Made by a program: the position numbers and the translations under genes
Assembly: GCF_015840715.1 (NCBI RefSeq)
Contig: NZ_CP060397.1
Coordinates: 1,054,001-1,118,000, forward strand
DNA: 64,000 nt
Reading direction: 5' to 3'
From: Synechococcus sp. CBW1004
GTDB lineage: Bacteria > Cyanobacteriota > Cyanobacteriia > PCC-6307 > Cyanobiaceae
In this document: in pieces, positions 49,156-61,308 of the stretch
How positions within the stretch are numbered: position 1 is the first letter of the stretch
Layout: every line of letters starts with the position of its first letter
Notes under the pieces: model-generated
Seen by the model: only the letters and a program-made list of their open reading frames with translations
Databases searched by the model: none
What the model was told of the DNA's origin: nothing

Positions 49156-49448
49156 CATGCGTGCGTCCGGGACGGGTCACAGCGACAACCCAGGCACCGG
49201 CGGAAGAGACCAGAAGGGATCGATGAAAACCCATGACCTGAATCGGCGGAATTCAAGTTGCGCAGGAACATCAGGGTGTCGCCTGGGAACATCAGCAAAA
49301 GCAGGCAGTCAGAAACCCTTATTGACACCATTGGAGCTGCTGCCTGATCATCGCCCCAACACGATTGCGGCACAACCTACATTTCAGCCTCGACAGTTGA
49401 GGGTGTCTCTCGAGACCGTCAGTTCTCCCTCCATTGCATGGACCAGGA
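49156..49448. promoter_or_regulatory. Control region upstream of the first Crp/Fnr-type regulator and sbtA
   Basis: This spacer of about 290 bases has lower G+C than its surroundings. It contains two copies of GGAACATCAG (49265-49274 and 49286-49295) spaced exactly 21 bases apart in the same orientation, as two operator half-sites on one helix face would be. A TTGACA at 49322-49327 is a possible -35 box, but no good -10 is seen. It is probably the promoter region for the regulator-sbtA-sbtB series. Confidence 0.5.
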
Positions 49449-50024
49449 ATGCAGGCAATGATGTCGGAACATCGTTTACAGCTGGCACTTGAGGTCGGGC
49501 AGGCATTGCCTGTGCACACGTTTTGGCGTGTGCATGATGGCGTTGTGCGAGCAACAGGCTGGAGTCATCGCGCCGATGTCTACACCCTGGGCATCTGGGG
49601 CCCCGGAGACATTGTGATTCCGGACCTGCTCAGCCAGAAGCCGATGGAACTTCGCGCCCTGTCAGGGGTGATGGTGCATGAATGGGTTCCCCAGCCCGAT
49701 GAATGGCAGGCCTTCTCCTCCACACATAGTCAGCAGATGGGCGTGCTGCTGGAACTGACCCGCATTCGCCCGGCCGAAGCACGGTTGTTTCATCTCCTGA
49801 TCTGGCTCAGCGAACGCTTCGGCTGCCAGAGCGAACAAGGCCGCTCGCTTCCACTGGAAGCCATGAATCTCACCCACCGTCAACTGGCGGAGATGGCCAG
49901 CGTGTCGCGCGTCACGGTGACCAAAGCCCTCGGCCACTTCCGGCAGCAGGGATGGCTGCAGCGAATCGGAGGACAAGAGCTGCTGACACACGACGGCATC
50001 GCCCTGCAGCAGAGATTCAGCTGA
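49449..50024 (+). CDS. Short Crp/Fnr-type transcriptional regulator
   Basis: The 191-residue protein has a C-terminal winged-helix of the Crp/Fnr family (MNLTHRQLAEMASVSRVTVT, KALGHFRQQGWLQRIG) and a shortened N-terminal beta-roll: WRVHDGVVRATGWSHRADVY and LGIWGPGDIVIPDLLSQ. The first strands and the nucleotide-contact Glu/Arg of CRP are absent, so it probably does not bind cAMP. Start is uncertain: ATGs at 49449, 49458 and 49461, with TTG at 49434. It lies 95 bases before sbtA, so control of carbon uptake is likely. It is a paralogue of the regulator at 54143. Confidence 0.88.
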   Translation: MQAMMSEHRLQLALEVGQALPVHTFWRVHDGVVRATGWSHRADVYTLGIWGPGDIVIPDLLSQKPMELRALSGVMVHEWVPQPDEWQAFSSTHSQQMGVLLELTRIRPAEARLFHLLIWLSERFGCQSEQGRSLPLEAMNLTHRQLAEMASVSRVTVTKALGHFRQQGWLQRIGGQELLTHDGIALQQRFS

Positions 50025-53668: not shown

Positions 53669-54045
53669 CCAGATCTCCAGGAACAGACATGCAAGCAGGA
53701 ATGAAAAGGATGTGGACCAAAACAGCACACCTGCGCATGTTGTCGCGACAACCAGAAACGAATTCCGTCTGTTCTCTCAGGCTGTCCCCGCTGCCTGGCC
53801 CTCTCCGTACGCCATGAGAGCACTGTCATTGCAGCGGCTTCATCTTGACTGGAGCATGATCAGGGCGACTGATCGCGGTCATGAGCGATGGTGCCAAAGA
53901 GGCGACCCAGCTCATGAGAGAGGGTCCCCTATGGTTGGCGCACGTCACCTCAGCAGACTCCGTGATGAGATCTCGCAATCCCTAGCCACTGGGCCGGACG
54001 TCCGGTCAGGAACACGGACAGTGGCCAGACCACAGCATTGGGGCG

Positions 54046-54100
54046 ATTGACGCCGTTGTCTTCAGCCGCCGATGAGATGTTGACAGACAACGGAGTCAAT
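54046..54100. promoter_or_regulatory. 15-base inverted repeat upstream of the second Crp/Fnr-type regulator
   Basis: Arms ATTGACGCCGTTGTC (54046-54060) and GACAACGGAGTCAAT (54086-54100) pair with one mismatch across a 25-base loop. They lie 42 bases before the most likely start codon of the regulator, so the structure would be in its leader or operator. Autoregulation or RNA-level control is possible. Confidence 0.55.
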
Positions 54101-54142
54101 GTGATGTGGCCTCACCGTCATCCATTCACGGCCTTTCCTGCC

Positions 54143-54733
54143 ATGCATTCCGCCATGACAGCCAGAGATCTCCATCTGAGCCTGCAGGCCGGCGCGGCAG
54201 TGCCCTGCAATCTCAACTGGCGGATCGAAGACGGCTACCTGAGGGTCTGCAGCTGGAGCGAGCATGGGGAGGCCTGCACCTTCGGGCTATGGGGGCCGGG
54301 TGATCTGGTGATCCCCTCGTTGATTGCCGTGGCACCGTTGCAGCTCCTGGCCCTCTCCTCGGCGCGGGTGGAGGAGGCCGAACCCGAGCCTGAGGAGCGG
54401 GAAGCCTTCCTGCTCGCTCAGAGCGTGCAGACCGCCACCCTTCTGCAGTTGAGCCGCACCAGACCGGCGGAGTCACGCCTGTTTCAACTGTTGCTGTGGA
54501 TCGGTGAGCGCTTCGGACGCGTCAACAGCCGTGGCGTGAGCCTGTCGTTCGACGACATGAATCTCACCCATCGTCACCTGGCGGAGATTTCGGGGCTGAC
54601 CCGCGTCACCGTGACCAAGGCGATTTCGCATTTCCGCCAGCAGGGTTATCTCCGCAAGGAGGGGCCGGATGAACTGCTCCTGCGCGAGGCTCTGCCGCAG
54701 TTGCAGCGGCCGAGCAGAGGAGCACAGACGTGA
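54143..54733 (+). CDS. Second short Crp/Fnr-type transcriptional regulator
   Basis: The 196-residue protein is a paralogue of the regulator at 49449: LGLWGPGDLVIPSLIAVAPL-like and MNLTHRHLAEISGLTRVTVT segments match closely, and the winged-helix continues KAISHFRQQGYLRKEG. As in the paralogue, the first part of the beta-roll and the cAMP-contact residues are missing. The start is placed at ATG 54143 by alignment to the paralogue; an earlier frame start at 54038 would run through the inverted repeat. It precedes the histidine-decarboxylase-family operon and is its most likely regulator. Confidence 0.87.
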   Translation: MHSAMTARDLHLSLQAGAAVPCNLNWRIEDGYLRVCSWSEHGEACTFGLWGPGDLVIPSLIAVAPLQLLALSSARVEEAEPEPEEREAFLLAQSVQTATLLQLSRTRPAESRLFQLLLWIGERFGRVNSRGVSLSFDDMNLTHRHLAEISGLTRVTVTKAISHFRQQGYLRKEGPDELLLREALPQLQRPSRGAQT

Positions 54734-55144: not shown

Positions 55145-56359
55145 ATGAGCTACGACCCCTGGACCCGGCATGAGCAGCGATTCCCCGGGGACGCTGCGGC
55201 GGCAAGGCTGGAGGGACTGCGCTCCCATTTCGTGGAACGCTCGGCCCACTACATCGGCTTTCCCAACAGTCGGCTGATCTCCTTCGCAGAACTGGGCGAG
55301 TTCCTGCGATTCAACATTAATAACATCGGCGACCCCTTCCATCCCAATGACGGCATCAACACCTGTCATTTCGAACGTGAGGTTGTCAATTTCTGGTCCC
55401 AGCAGTTTCACCTCCACCCCGCTTCCGCCTGGGGCTACATCACCAACGGCAGCACCGAGGCGATCATGTATGGCATCGTCCAGGGCCGTGATCGACTCGA
55501 GAACCCTGTCCTCCTGTTCTCCGAGGAATCGCACTACTGTCTGCACAAAATCGCCCATCTGCTGCGGCTTCCCTATCGGGTCGTCGCCAGTCATGGCGAT
55601 GGCAGCCTCGACCTGGCGTCCCTGGACGACGCCATCAGGCATCTGGATGGACGGCCCTTCATTCTCAACCTGACCCTGGGCACCACCTTTCATGGCGCCA
55701 TCGAACCACCGCAGCAGGTTCTGGAGCTGCTCGAGAGCCGGCGCTGCCGAAGCTTCCACGTGCACGTCGACGCCGCCCTGTACGGACCGTTGCTGACCTG
55801 GATCGATGGGGCGCCGCTGTTCGACTTCCGCCTGCCGATCCATACGCTCTCGTTTTCAGGCCACAAGTTTCTCGGCGCACCGATTCCGTGCGGTGTGGTG
55901 CTCAGCCACAGCGACCCCGTGCGCCCCTTCGACGGCAGTGCCGAATACGTCGGGTCGCTCGACACCACCCTCGCCGGCTCTCGGGATGGCCTCTCCGCCC
56001 TGGTGCTCTGGCTGGTGATCCAGAGGGTCGGTGCGAAGGGGTTGGCCGCTCTGGCCGAGGAGTCACTGCAGCTGGCGGTCGACTTCGCCACCAGAATGGA
56101 GCGGGCCGGCATCGGCGTCACCTGCCATGACCATGGCTGCATCCTGGTCTTCAGGCGGCCGGATGAGGCGCTGGCCCGCCGCTGGCAGCTGGCCACCAGG
56201 GGGGACTTCGCCCATCTGGTCACCGTCCCCGGCGTCACCTCTGAGATGCTGGAGTCGTTTCTGCAGGAATGGATCGAAGCGATGGCCCAGGGCGTCCCGG
56301 ACCTTCGCCCATCCTCACCAGGAACGGCCGAAACCACCGCCGCCGGGGGGATGCGATGA
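55145..56359 (+). CDS. PLP-dependent histidine decarboxylase family protein
   Basis: The 404-residue group II decarboxylase resembles bacterial PLP-type histidine decarboxylases along its length: LGEFLRFNINNIGDPF, CHFEREVVNFWSQQF, SAWGYITNGSTEAIMYGIVQ, FSEESHYCLHKIAHLLRLPY, FHVHVDAALYGPLL with the PLP-contact Asp, and SFSGHKFLGAPIPCGVVLSH with the Schiff-base Lys. It probably makes histamine. Plant-type serine decarboxylases share this fold, so ethanolamine is an alternative product. ATG 55145 gives the family N terminus. Its stop overlaps the sensor gene. Confidence 0.9.
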   Translation: MSYDPWTRHEQRFPGDAAAARLEGLRSHFVERSAHYIGFPNSRLISFAELGEFLRFNINNIGDPFHPNDGINTCHFEREVVNFWSQQFHLHPASAWGYITNGSTEAIMYGIVQGRDRLENPVLLFSEESHYCLHKIAHLLRLPYRVVASHGDGSLDLASLDDAIRHLDGRPFILNLTLGTTFHGAIEPPQQVLELLESRRCRSFHVHVDAALYGPLLTWIDGAPLFDFRLPIHTLSFSGHKFLGAPIPCGVVLSHSDPVRPFDGSAEYVGSLDTTLAGSRDGLSALVLWLVIQRVGAKGLAALAEESLQLAVDFATRMERAGIGVTCHDHGCILVFRRPDEALARRWQLATRGDFAHLVTVPGVTSEMLESFLQEWIEAMAQGVPDLRPSSPGTAETTAAGGMR

Positions 56360-57744
56360 CCGAGATTCAGCCACGCCGTGCTGCGTTGGCGAACCCCGCC
56401 GTGCAGGGGGTTCTATTCACCCTGGCCTGGCTGGCGGTCACCAATGTGACCATCTATTTCATCTACCTGCGTGCCGTCGAGGCGGTGAAGGAAGAGATCC
56501 GTGACGGCCTGCTGCGCAACGTCAGTGTCGCCGCCACCAGCATCGATGGCGACCGGCACAAGACGTTCACCTCCAAGGCATCAAGGCAGGACCCGGCCTA
56601 CCTCGCCTTCATTGCCCATATGGAGACGCTCCGCAAGGCCTCCACGGATGTGCGCTACCTCTACACCAACATCCTCAAGGACGGCAAGGTCTACTTCATC
56701 GCCAACGGCAGTCCCCAGAACGACAACGACAAGGACGGCAAGCCGGATGAAGCGCCTCAGCTGATGGATCCGTACCCCGACGCCGGCAAGGCGCTTCAGC
56801 AAGCTCTGCAAAGCCAGAAGCCCGCCGTCGACCAGGAGCCCTACACCGATATCTGGGGAACCTTCTACAGCGCCTATGCACCGTTCAAGGATTCGCAGGG
56901 GCGCTTCGTCGGCACCCTGGGCATGGATCTTGAACTGAAGACCCTGCAGCAACGCCTCAACCCGATCGGACTGGCCGCCCAGCGGGCGGCCTTCACCTCC
57001 GGCATCCTGGCGATCCTGTTCGGCACTGCGCTCTGGTTCTTTCGCAGCCGCAACGGCATTCTCGAATCGCTGCATCACATGGCCGAAAGCAGGCTCCATC
57101 GGGTGGAGCAGGAGCGCATGCAGGAGCGCAACGCGGCAGCTGCCCAGCTGGCGATGGTGGCGGCCAGACTCGAAGGGCAGACCGTGCCGGTGAGCACTGG
57201 GGAAGCCAAAGACCAGCCTGCCGGCGAATCCCCTGTTCCCTACGCCTCCGCCCTGAAGCGCTATGCCATGGCCAGACAGGGGATGCGCTCGGAGCATGCG
57301 GAGAACTTTGATCCCGCTGCGCTGCTGCGCAGCAGCCTGCCCACCGACACGCCGCTCCAGGTGGCGCGCGATGTGCCCTCCATGGTGTGGGGCGATCCGG
57401 AGGAACTGAAGGAGATCATCCATGCCCTCTGTTTCCACCCCTTCAGCAACACGGCCCTGGGATCCCTGCGTGAACTCGACCTGGATGCCGCCCGCGAGCA
57501 GCTGAACACGCTGGATCTGGTGATGTCACTGCGCTTCGCCGACAAGGACAGCACGCTCAACGGCAGCGCACTGATCCAGGACCGTTATCACCCCGAGCAT
57601 GTCTTCGATGAGGATTCCCTGCAGTTCGCCACCTGTTGCGAGCAGGTCCGGGCACTCGGCGGCAGCCTGGTGCACCGCCAGGAAAGCGAAGGAAGTGAGC
57701 TCGTGGTGCTCACCCTCCCCTTCGAGAAATTCCACGAGGAGTGA
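56356..57744 (+). CDS. Membrane sensor: periplasmic Cache-like domain with degenerate histidine-kinase ATPase domain
   Basis: The 462-residue protein has TM1 (17-38), a periplasmic Cache/PAS-like domain (40-208, with DVRYLYTNILKDGKVYFIA, the acidic NDNDKDGKPDEA and DIWGTFYSAYAPFKDSQGR), TM2 (211-229), a coiled region (235-275) and a C-terminal region (318-458) resembling a HATPase domain (VWGDPEELKEIIHALCFHPF; CEQVRALGGSLVH; SELVVLTLPFEKF). No phospho-acceptor His domain and no N or G boxes are seen, so it is probably a pseudo-kinase receptor. It overlaps the decarboxylase stop by four bases (ATGA) and is two bases from the MFS gene. Confidence 0.82.
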   Translation: MTEIQPRRAALANPAVQGVLFTLAWLAVTNVTIYFIYLRAVEAVKEEIRDGLLRNVSVAATSIDGDRHKTFTSKASRQDPAYLAFIAHMETLRKASTDVRYLYTNILKDGKVYFIANGSPQNDNDKDGKPDEAPQLMDPYPDAGKALQQALQSQKPAVDQEPYTDIWGTFYSAYAPFKDSQGRFVGTLGMDLELKTLQQRLNPIGLAAQRAAFTSGILAILFGTALWFFRSRNGILESLHHMAESRLHRVEQERMQERNAAAAQLAMVAARLEGQTVPVSTGEAKDQPAGESPVPYASALKRYAMARQGMRSEHAENFDPAALLRSSLPTDTPLQVARDVPSMVWGDPEELKEIIHALCFHPFSNTALGSLRELDLDAAREQLNTLDLVMSLRFADKDSTLNGSALIQDRYHPEHVFDEDSLQFATCCEQVRALGGSLVHRQESEGSELVVLTLPFEKFHEE

Positions 57745-57746
57745 CC

Positions 57747-58925
57747 ATGGCGCAAGCGAAACAGGCCAGCGGGGACAGGGGAGCCCTGATCGCGGTGGTG
57801 GCCCTGATCCTGGCCACCGCCGTGATCCAGGCGGCCGTGGGCTTCAACACGGTGTTGTTCCCGGTGCGGCTGGAGTCGTACGGCTTCAGCAAAGGTCTGA
57901 TCGGCCTCTGTCTGGCCTTCGAGATGGGGGCGGTGGTGTCGATCGTCTCCTCCATCGATCAGATCCTGGCCCGGCTCGGCCTCGTGGGCACGATGGCCCT
58001 CGCCACCGGAGTGCGGCTGGTGATGTTGCTGCTGCTCTCGGGCACCCGCAGTCTGCCGATCTGGTGTGTGGGGGTGTTCTGCTTCGGCATCGGCACCTAC
58101 CTCTGTCTGATCTCCCTGCAGACCTGGGTCAACGCCGTCCCTCTCGGCAGGCTGCGCGGCCTGGTCAGCGGGTGCTACAGCTCGGCCCTCTCGCTCGGCA
58201 CCGCCAGCGGCCCGATCCTGTTCAACCAGGTGGGATCGGCAGAGGGCAACCAGGCATTCCAGGCCAACATGCTGATCGTGCTGGTGGCGCTGCTGTTGAT
58301 CGTTCCCTTCCTCAATCAGGCCCCGCGCATCTGCGGTCAGGGACGCCTGCGGCTGGGCTATGTGATCCGGATGGCCAAGGTGCCGATGCTCTCGTCATTC
58401 GTGGGGGGCGTCACCTTTTTCGGGCTGCCGGCGTTTCTCACCCTGTACGGCATGATGAACGGCCTGACGGTGCAGCGCGCCTCACTGCTTCTCACAGCCT
58501 TCATGCTGGGCTCGGTCAGTCTGGGACTGTTGATCTCCAGCCTATCGGATCGCATCAACCGCACTCTGCTGACGATCCTGTGCGTGCTGGTCGGCGTGAT
58601 CTGTGCCGTGTATCTTCCTCTGGGCATCTACAACTACGGCATCGCCCTAAGCCTGCTGTTCGTCTGGGGCGGCGCCGCCGGCGGCATCTACGCCACGGGG
58701 CTGGCCACGGTGGCGGATCTGTTTCGGCAGGAGGACCAGGTATCGGCGAATGTGGCCTACTCGATTCTTGACAACATCGGCGGGATCTTCGGCGTGCTGC
58801 TGATCGGCCTGCTGATGGGAGCTGGCGTTTCGGATGGCATTGTGTATGTCATTGTACTCACCGCTGTGAGCTATTTCATCTACTGCCTTGCCCAGATCCT
58901 TTACAGCCCCGACCACGCCATCTGA
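57747..58925 (+). CDS. MFS transporter
   Basis: The 392-residue protein has about 12 membrane segments of the major facilitator type: LIAVVALILATAVIQAAVGF, LFPVRLESYGFSKGLIGLCL, MGAVVSIVSSIDQILARLGL and VNAVPLGRLRGLVSGCYSSA in the first half; SLGLLISSLSDRINRTLLTI and LLFVWGGAAGGIYATGLATV in the second. It resembles MFS proteins of the YcaD/sugar-efflux type. Its substrate is unknown, but its place directly after the decarboxylase and sensor suggests amine or amino-acid transport. ATG 57747 follows a GAGGAG ribosome-binding site; a GTG six bases earlier is also possible. Confidence 0.9.
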   Translation: MAQAKQASGDRGALIAVVALILATAVIQAAVGFNTVLFPVRLESYGFSKGLIGLCLAFEMGAVVSIVSSIDQILARLGLVGTMALATGVRLVMLLLLSGTRSLPIWCVGVFCFGIGTYLCLISLQTWVNAVPLGRLRGLVSGCYSSALSLGTASGPILFNQVGSAEGNQAFQANMLIVLVALLLIVPFLNQAPRICGQGRLRLGYVIRMAKVPMLSSFVGGVTFFGLPAFLTLYGMMNGLTVQRASLLLTAFMLGSVSLGLLISSLSDRINRTLLTILCVLVGVICAVYLPLGIYNYGIALSLLFVWGGAAGGIYATGLATVADLFRQEDQVSANVAYSILDNIGGIFGVLLIGLLMGAGVSDGIVYVIVLTAVSYFIYCLAQILYSPDHAI

Positions 58926-58986: not shown

Positions 58987-60231
58987 ATGCCCCCTCGAGA
59001 GCCTCGGCGATCCAGGCACCCCACCATTCTTCAGAAGCCCTGGAATGTTTCGGCACTCCTGCTGGCAGCGCTGGCGATCATGATGATGTTGATTGCCGTG
59101 GTTTCGGTGGACAAGCCGCGCAGTCGAACCGGTGATTACCTGGAGCTGGCCCGTGGCAATGATCCAGGCATGCTCCAGCGCGAGCAGAATCTCCCCAGAC
59201 TGCTGAAGCGCGATCACGATGGCTACAAGATCCCCAGCGAAGGAAGCAGCGACACGCCACAGGGGGTGATGAAGCTGAGAATGGGCCTGTACGCGATGAA
59301 CAACTACAACATCAATCTACAGGTTCCCTCATTTGATAGCACGGGTTACTGGTGGATGAAATGGGACGACGACCTGCAGACATACATGACCGAAAACAAC
59401 CTCAAGATCTGGCGAGTGATGACGCCGATCAACCTGCTTGACATCCCCGAATCATCAGACTCTGTCTTTACACCTACCGGCAAGGACGAACCCATCCGCA
59501 TGAAGGATGGAACCTGGTACATGACAGGCGCCTACAGCGGCACCTTCTTCATTGACCGCGTTGACTACAGGCATCATCCGTTCACATCCCTGAGTCTGCC
59601 CATCATGATCGAGGCCGACGACATCGTCCTCAGCAACAACAGGCTTCAGATCATTCCGGATGTGAAGGGCAGCGGCATCGGCCAGTTCATCCATGCCCAC
59701 ACCGGCTGGGTGAACATGGGCTGGTCTCTGGCGACCTACAAACATCACTACGACACCGATTTCGGCTTCGGCGAAGGGGCCTCCGACTACAGCCAGCTCG
59801 TGTTTGCCGTCAAATACGCCAGCAGCGCCTGGTCAGCCTTCTGGAAGGTGCTGGTCCCCCTGCTGATCGTGGTGGCGATGATCGCGGGCGCCACCAAGCT
59901 CGACACGCAACACTATGACGTCCGCCTCACCCTGCCGGTCACAGTGCTGCTGACGCTGGTCTTCATGCAGCAGGCGCAGGATGCCGACCTGCCACGCATC
60001 CCCTATCTCACCTTTCTGGACGAGGTGTATGTCGTGGCCTACATCCTCACACTGGGCTCCTTCGTGCTGATGCTCTGGGCCTGCCGTCGCTACTACAGAG
60101 CTCTCCAGATTGAAGATCCGAAGGAGCGGGCGCTCGAAATGGAAAAGCTGGACCGATCCGACGATTACTGGCCAACCTATGTCATCCTTGCCGGCATCAT
60201 CTCCCTGACCTTCGCCTGGTTCACGGGCTGA
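58987..60231 (+). CDS. Pentameric ligand-gated ion channel homologue (ELIC-like)
   Basis: The 414-residue protein has an N-terminal hydrophobic helix (20-41), an extracellular region of about 240 residues and four membrane helices (286-304, 311-330, 344-366, 394-412). The extracellular part shows the pLGIC order: LRMGLYAMNNYNINLQVPSF, GYWWMKWDDDL, and the Pro-loop YRHHPF (194-199) in place of the Cys-loop. The TM1-TM3 block WKVLVPLLIVVAMIAGATKL, VRLTLPVTVLLTLVFMQQAQ and ADLPRIPYLTFLDEVYVVAY closely follows ELIC and GLIC (LPR-PY-T---D motif). It lies 61 bases after the MFS gene. No Cys-loop cysteines are present, as in bacterial members. Confidence 0.88.
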   Translation: MPPREPRRSRHPTILQKPWNVSALLLAALAIMMMLIAVVSVDKPRSRTGDYLELARGNDPGMLQREQNLPRLLKRDHDGYKIPSEGSSDTPQGVMKLRMGLYAMNNYNINLQVPSFDSTGYWWMKWDDDLQTYMTENNLKIWRVMTPINLLDIPESSDSVFTPTGKDEPIRMKDGTWYMTGAYSGTFFIDRVDYRHHPFTSLSLPIMIEADDIVLSNNRLQIIPDVKGSGIGQFIHAHTGWVNMGWSLATYKHHYDTDFGFGEGASDYSQLVFAVKYASSAWSAFWKVLVPLLIVVAMIAGATKLDTQHYDVRLTLPVTVLLTLVFMQQAQDADLPRIPYLTFLDEVYVVAYILTLGSFVLMLWACRRYYRALQIEDPKERALEMEKLDRSDDYWPTYVILAGIISLTFAWFTG

Positions 60232-60239
60232 ATCCCTCC

Positions 60240-60947
60240 TCAGGAGGGAATCAGGCTGATGGCCCGGGCCAGGAGGATCAGATCCACGTCGAACACCACG
60301 ATCAGCTGGGCGATCACCAGCAGGCGCGCCTCCGGGCGGATCGGTTCGACATTGGGGAAGAAGGAGAAGCTGACGGTGCAGGAGAGATAGAGATAGTCGA
60401 GAAAACCGGGTTGCCAGGGGCTCGGGGCCGCCCCATCCTCCCTCTGTTGGGCGAGCTGCTGTGCCGGAGGCGGAATCCACCAGAAGGCGCGCTGCTCGGG
60501 CTGACGGGCATCACGATCCAACCGCCAGTAGAGGTAGGTGAACAGGGCCAGCAAGGCCACGAACAGGAGAGCCGCCTGCAGCAGCAGCATCCGACCGGGC
60601 ACCTGACTCTGCAGCAGGCGCATGTTCACCTCGACCAGAGCCAGCGCGAGGCTGGTCGTGAGAAGCAACGTCAACACACGTTCCTGCTGCCGCATCATGC
60701 GGCGGTGATGTGTTGTGGCGGCAAGGCTGCACATCGCCAACAGAATCCAGGTGGCCGCATACACCCCCCAGACCAGGGGGCCGTTCGGGAGCCCGCCGTG
60801 ATCGCGCAGCTCTCGGTTCACCAGACCCAGGGCAGCCAGCGTCAGCAACAACAGCAGCAGAAACGGCCGCGCCTCACCGATGCGCCCTGGCGGCACCGCT
60901 GGGCGGCCGTGCTCCGGCAGGGAGAGAGGGGCAGAGGGATGGGTCAT
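60240..60947 (-). CDS. Multi-pass membrane protein with pore-like C-terminal hairpin (DUF1345-like)
   Basis: The 235-residue protein has six hydrophobic segments: FLLLLLLTLAALGLVNREL, LVWGVYAATWILLAMCSLA, VLTLLLTTSLALALVEVNM, LLLQAALLFVALLALFTYL, and a C-terminal pair LDYLYLSCTVSFSFFP and LLVIAQLIVVFDVDLILLAR. The last pair resembles DUF1345 or a degenerate two-helix potassium channel without a TVGYG filter. ATG 60947 is used. It is convergent with the channel gene; the stop codons are only 9 bases apart. Confidence 0.65.
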   Translation of the reverse strand: MTHPSAPLSLPEHGRPAVPPGRIGEARPFLLLLLLTLAALGLVNRELRDHGGLPNGPLVWGVYAATWILLAMCSLAATTHHRRMMRQQERVLTLLLTTSLALALVEVNMRLLQSQVPGRMLLLQAALLFVALLALFTYLYWRLDRDARQPEQRAFWWIPPPAQQLAQQREDGAAPSPWQPGFLDYLYLSCTVSFSFFPNVEPIRPEARLLVIAQLIVVFDVDLILLARAISLIPS

Positions 60948-61005
60948 GCAGGGCAGCTTCCCGGCGGACGCCGCAGGCTGCAAGCACCGGCGGGGCCAGC
61001 AAGGC

Positions 61006-61308
61006 TCAGGGTTTCGGCGGAGGCTTCCTGCTGGAGGGCCGCAGGCTGCGGTGCGGTCGATGGTATTCAGGATCGGGATTGCTGGCCTGAAGCGCCGAAA
61101 CGGTGCTGAGGGCAAAACCGACCAGACCGCCGGCGAAACCCAGCAGAATCAGCTGCCAGAAGGCCCGCTCCGGAGAGAGCGGCGTGGCGGTGCGCTGGAT
61201 CGCCGCCTGCAGCAGCAGACCCACCGTCACCCCCAGCAGCACGCCCCCGAGCAGAGACCAGAGCACCCGGCCGCTCCTTGATCCACGGGTGGGGCGACGA
61301 CGACTCAT
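61006..61308 (-). CDS. Small two-helix membrane protein coupled to the RND pump gene
   Basis: The 100-residue product has a basic N terminus, two hydrophobic segments (VLWSLLGGVLLGVTVGLLLQ and FWQLILLGFAGGLVGFALST) and a basic Pro-rich tail. It is not recognised as a family. Its ATG overlaps the RND gene stop by four bases (61305-61308), so it is cotranslated with the pump and could be an accessory protein of it. Confidence 0.72.
   Translation of the reverse strand: MSRRRPTRGSRSGRVLWSLLGGVLLGVTVGLLLQAAIQRTATPLSPERAFWQLILLGFAGGLVGFALSTVSALQASNPDPEYHRPHRSLRPSSRKPPPKP

Follow-up and report, generated by a model that had tools for sequence, protein, structure and literature searches.

The gene at positions 58987-60231 of the window (the whole stretch of 64,000 nucleotides analysed here) encodes a predicted subunit of a pentameric ligand-gated ion channel (pLGIC). 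It is the last gene of a four-gene operon, which recurs in nine genomes and in which a PLP amino-acid decarboxylase, a Cache-domain membrane protein, an MFS transporter and the channel follow one another on the forward strand. We suggest that the operon is an amine module for synthesis, export and sensing, in which an amine-gated channel is the receiver, a reading to which we give about an even chance. A small freshwater-type cyanobacterium carries here a bacterial cousin of the nerve-receptor channels. Bacterial pLGICs are model proteins for these receptors, and their own natural ligands and roles are still unsettled. An operon with a putative ligand-making enzyme offers a concrete short list of ligands, namely the decarboxylase products. 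The genes of the operon are the following.

55145-56359, + strand: PLP decarboxylase (Pyridoxal_deC, 1.1e-21; NCBIfam histidine decarboxylase; PDB serine decarboxylase, 9.5e-74)
56356-57744, + strand: Cache-domain membrane protein with two TM segments and, at the cytoplasmic C terminus, an alpha/beta region of no recognized family (dCache_1, 2.6e-5)
57741-58925, + strand: MFS transporter (MFS_1, 2.5e-18)
58987-60231, + strand: pLGIC subunit of 414 aa, the last gene (PDB matches, profile comparison, dN/dS)

The channel gene and its product

The channel frame is uninterrupted from the ATG at 58987 to the stop codon ending at 60231 and has the following elements.

59047-59112, + strand: N-terminal hydrophobic helix, residues 21-42 (hydropathy peak 2.87; conserved surroundings)
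59554-59583, + strand: Pro-loop DRVDYRHHPF, residues 190-199 (alignment with ELIC and GLIC; P198 and F199 invariant)
59827-59898, + strand: M1 helix, residues 281-304
59923-59988, + strand: M2 pore helix, residues 313-334 (ungapped alignment of M2 with ELIC and GLIC)
60001-60087, + strand: M3 helix, residues 339-367
60169-60225, + strand: M4 helix, residues 395-413

The matches of the channel in the PDB (phmmer) span the protein from the ligand domain to M4. The top match is an engineered variant of GLIC, the proton-gated and likewise cyanobacterial channel of Gloeobacter violaceus (E 6.7e-8 over residues 98-413); ELIC of Dickeya/Erwinia chrysanthemi (PDB 2VL0) gives E of about 6.4e-7 and the common GLIC sequence 7.3e-7. 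When a profile of 16 family members is compared with ELIC by hhalign, whole-length homology is found with a probability of 98.3% (E 1.7e-14, 286 columns), while the MFS protein encoded next to the channel, used as a control with this profile, reaches 0.1%. Within the Pro-loop core DYRHHPF (residues 193-199) P198 and F199 are invariant in 16/16 aligned relatives. M2 aligns with ELIC and GLIC without gaps and has D at −2′, T at 2′, P at 4′, T at 6′, L at 9′, F at 13′ and Q at 16′. The M2-M3 stretch is LPRIPYLTFLD in the channel and LPRLPYTTVID in ELIC, with the pattern LPRxPYxTxxD in common. The dN/dS values of three orthologue pairs are 0.097, 0.051 and 0.058. Because of these PDB and profile matches, the Pro-loop, M2 and the low dN/dS, we conclude that, judged from its sequence, the gene is a real, maintained, full-length pLGIC gene under purifying selection. 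The preliminary description had proposed a pLGIC with a complete Pro-loop, an LPR-PY-T--D pattern shared with ELIC and an intact frame with a full extracellular domain, taken to suggest function. The pLGIC family, the Pro-loop, the pattern and the intact frame are borne out, and the dN/dS of 0.05-0.10 shows purifying selection.

The four-helix layout given there is correct for M1-M4, which align with ELIC and GLIC, but incomplete: a further, strongly hydrophobic segment at the N terminus makes five, not four, candidate TM helices. There is no obvious signal-peptidase site at residues 21-42, and the block KPWN...TGDYL...LLKRD around the segment is conserved in the orthologues. This helix is probably an uncleaved membrane anchor; it is additional to the helices of ELIC, and the solved GLIC construct has no such anchor.

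Family models hardly recognize the channel. Pfam is nearly blind to it (Neur_chan_memb, E 0.19), and its score with NCBIfam LGIC_1 (NF033918) is 38.5 bits, under the cut-off of 500. An AlphaFold monomer reached a pLDDT of 36 with an alignment of five sequences only, the shallow depth of which is probably responsible. P at 4′ and Q at 16′ of M2 are common to nearly all aligned cyanobacterial pLGICs and absent from ELIC and GLIC.

It might be argued that the protein is a non-conducting receptor with the pLGIC fold, or that it works only as a heteromer with a tandem paralogue where both exist. Two pLGIC genes do stand in tandem at two of the related loci (L037 and L038), the AlphaFold model offers no usable fold and the Pro at M2 4′ is foreign to ELIC and GLIC. 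However, M2 is free of gaps, polar at 2′ and 6′ and hydrophobic at 9′ and 13′, and the window genome lacks a tandem copy and has, as its sole other pLGIC, a distant paralogue of 29% identity (G000:C1:2265512-2266465; L002, L055). We regard this alternative as very unlikely. The paralogue itself has an ordinary signal-peptide look and adjoins hemB-like and mutS2-like genes, with no decarboxylase nearby. Two scans of viral contigs returned no relative. Searches of plasmids yielded no match to the channel, and for ELIC a single weak one in Legionella.

The operon and its recurrence

The preliminary description did not include the operon. Its decarboxylase and Cache genes overlap in ATGA, its Cache and MFS genes overlap in GTGA, and 61 bp separate the MFS gene from the channel; no convincing internal promoter or terminator was found within the four genes. 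The dN/dS is 0.05-0.18 across all four, and the MFS transporter is the most conserved of them (70-86% identity in the genus). The Cache protein scores 24.3 bits with dCache_1, under the cut-off of 45, its two TM segments flank the domain and its AlphaFold model has a pLDDT of 44, again probably owing to a shallow alignment. At L037:7800-9659 and in the counterparts in L038-L040 the Cache protein is longer by ~155-160 residues. The extra segment (NEGSTYAVF...EEAETFTLKAI) lies in the cytoplasmic part and has the look of a Calx-beta-type repeat, for which Pfam gives no confirmation.

Nine genomes contain the block, in several different chromosomal settings. These are the window genome, Synechococcus sp. 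GreenBA-s (L032), Vulcanococcus limneticus LL (L033), the MAG bin-282 (L034/L036, same record as G037), Synechococcus sp. Cruz CV12-2-Slac-r (L035) and four further genomes, G020, G028, G015 and G032, seen through L037-L040. For the relatives, genes were called by a simple ORF-picking procedure, and tblastn served as a check. The full order decarboxylase-Cache-MFS-pLGIC is present in the window and at L032, L033, L034/L036 and L037-L040, and the MFS-pLGIC part alone at L035, where it lies at a contig edge. The flanks vary: a Crp-like regulator and an AcrB family gene in the window, a reductase and carB (named from sequence by eye) at L032/L033, and tyrS at L037-L039 (G020, G028, G015).

Each of the four genes is found in the same 6/42 genomes of the genus (G000, G015, G020, G028, G032, G037), and the other genomes of the 42 have orthologues of none of them; distant Cache-domain matches elsewhere in the genus align over the N-terminal part only. 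The inheritance of the operon is all-or-none. The genomes are related, and within this one clade the joint presence of the genes is not independent of phylogeny, for which the counts are uncorrected. In the tree the operon channels form one clade (support 100/99). We reject chance adjacency of the genes on the recurring order and the all-or-none co-occurrence. The searchable papers, subscription journals lying outside them, contain no description of a cyanobacterial four-gene module of this kind.

Two neighbours were considered as further members and rejected, namely the downstream membrane gene at 60240-61115 and the upstream Crp-like gene, neither being conserved beside the orthologues. The former, on the − strand, encodes a membrane protein with a weak DUF1345 match, the C-terminal part of which resembles by eye the pore region of a two-TM potassium channel with an altered filter. 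The latter is one of two similar Crp-family-like regulators (49434-50024 and 54038-54733, + strand), the second of which stands directly upstream of the operon in the window genome only.

Ligand site and decarboxylase

Short primary amines open ELIC, whose gene is reported to share an operon with that of a putative amino-acid decarboxylase, annotated as glutamate decarboxylase (PMC3119659). The operon of the window is a second case of a decarboxylase beside a pLGIC, in another phylum and conserved in nine genomes. The 2011 remark on the neighbour of ELIC, until now an isolated coincidence, thereby becomes part of a recurring pattern that can be tested. The two operons differ in that the cyanobacterial one has Cache and MFS genes, and its decarboxylase belongs to the histidine/serine branch, unlike the annotated glutamate decarboxylase. 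For GLIC, no decarboxylase operon is reported in the literature examined.

The channel itself was previously called ELIC-type, and this fits it only loosely as far as sequence is concerned. Its identity to ELIC is ~19%, GLIC scores about equally in phmmer, LGIC_1 stays far under its cut-off, and in the tree both ELIC and GLIC have very long branches and lie apart from every cyanobacterial row, so that by scores and tree alike the channel is no closer to ELIC than to GLIC. The novelty is also smaller than implied there, as pLGICs of Gloeobacter, Crocosphaera and Synechococcus, picocyanobacterial ones included, are already published (PMC549065, PMC4795631), with one of Prochlorococcus also named (PMC4795631).

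The amine site of ELIC is matched in part. F19, Y38, E131, Y174 and F187 of ELIC have counterparts in Y102, Y121, E209, Y255 and Y268 of the channel, which are retained or conservatively changed in the operon orthologues, but E77, R91, N103 and F133 are not conserved (the alignment is poor in loops A and E). GLIC has no E at the ELIC-131 position, where the channel has E209; an acidic residue at M2 −2′ is common to GLIC and the channel. E209 and the aromatic positions also occur in many cyanobacterial pLGICs outside the operon, and therefore their retention permits an amine ligand without proving one.

The decarboxylase passes the NCBIfam cut-off for histidine decarboxylase (PRK02769; 335.7 vs 305 bits) and is 33-35% identical to the solved histidine decarboxylase and to the plant serine and alanine decarboxylases. 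Its catalytic motifs are intact: SGHK with the PLP lysine, ESHY, HxDAA and the loop Tyr in AEYVGS. With bacterial histidine decarboxylase and plant serine decarboxylase (PDB 7ERV, 8JG7) it shares SGHK, the stacking His and HxDAA, whereas its specificity motifs are unlike both, with FPN in place of YPY/YPF and SRDG[LFV] in place of SRNGH. The choice between serine and alanine is set at Tyr111 of AtSerDC, or Phe106 of CsAlaDC (PMC11407765); in all the operon enzymes the AtSerDC-111 position is Asn, not the Tyr of a serine decarboxylase. Since the specificity positions differ from those of both histidine and serine decarboxylases, the family name "histidine decarboxylase" should not be read as the substrate of this enzyme, and we reject the claim of a histamine-gated channel on the same grounds. 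Other cyanobacterial relatives of the decarboxylase are 33-39% identical. In the genomes which carry them they show no linkage to a pLGIC, and these genomes contain no strong pLGIC match, with a weak unlinked one in G072.

The proposed module and other readings

In the amine module, the PLP decarboxylase would convert an amino acid to a small primary amine, which the MFS transporter would carry over the membrane or exchange for the precursor. In the periplasm, the Cache protein may monitor a related small compound. The amine, bound in the classical site at the subunit interface, would open the homopentameric channel, and cations would enter. The sequences show membership of the pLGIC family, a conserved operon that is present as a whole or absent, purifying selection and retention of most amine-site residues of ELIC. 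We infer here the identity of the amine, the direction of transport, gating by the amine and assembly of the pentamer, while the acidic residue at M2 −2′ suggests the cation selectivity.

This reading is favoured by the overlaps in the operon, the recurring order, the 6/42 co-occurrence, the varied flanks, the single channel clade, the parallel with ELIC, the site residues and the dN/dS. It is weakened by the presence of E209 and the aromatics in non-operon pLGICs too, by the loss of ELIC E77, R91, N103 and F133, by the departure of the decarboxylase from both characterized relatives at the specificity positions, and by the confinement of the co-occurrence to one clade.

A decarboxylase with a transporter is the classical layout of acid-stress modules of the GadB/GadC type. 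The operon might accordingly serve acid stress or the proton-motive force, with the decarboxylase and an MFS antiporter using up cytoplasmic protons and the channel gated by protons like GLIC. This would suit the top solved match of the channel, which is the proton-gated cyanobacterial GLIC, and also the annotation of the ELIC neighbour. However, Pfam does not recognize the MFS protein as an amino-acid/amine antiporter, the residues of the GLIC ligand site are mostly not common to the channel, and the Cache sensor is given no reason. We consider an acid module unlikely.

A bolder form of the amine module, which we hold to be doubtful, is that picocyanobacteria possess an amine signalling unit laid out like a chemical synapse, where one operon provides synthesis of the transmitter, its release, slow sensing by the Cache protein and a fast channel gated by the transmitter. 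In that case, decarboxylases would have become associated with amine-gated pLGICs in both Gammaproteobacteria (ELIC) and cyanobacteria.

The sister channels provide the natural comparison, as related channels with other partners and presumably other ligands. The sister set has 17 channels with 34-41% identity to the window channel (clade support 100/100). They are paired divergently, head-to-head, with a Peripla_BP_6 periplasmic binding protein of the branched-chain amino-acid type, at about 18 loci (L037, L041-L046, L107-L109, L111, L113-L117, L119); for two further rows of the clade no partner was found. In G020 both sets lie side by side, in the order binding protein, its channel, decarboxylase-Cache-MFS-channel and tyrS. 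Since related channels have clade-specific partners, we suggest a connection between partner and ligand.

The same pairing could also mean that the operon reflects shared regulation and a common nitrogen or amine theme, the channel ligand being environmental and not the decarboxylase product, and being delivered or tuned by the Cache protein or some other molecule of the periplasm. Tasneem et al. reported prokaryotic pLGICs (ART-LGICs) that are fused to, or share operons with, Cache or periplasmic binding proteins, one example being a stand-alone Cache gene in Rhodopseudomonas (PMC549065). That text contains the word "decarboxylase" 0 times. In the operon described here, however, the decarboxylase is as tightly tied to the other genes as the Cache gene is, and the ELIC operon, too, has a decarboxylase (PMC3119659). 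An environmental ligand seems improbable to us.

Finally, G028, a picocyanobacterial genome of 2.9 Mb, has six pLGIC-like matches, one or two of which may be fragments. Six per genome is an unusual expansion for bacteria.
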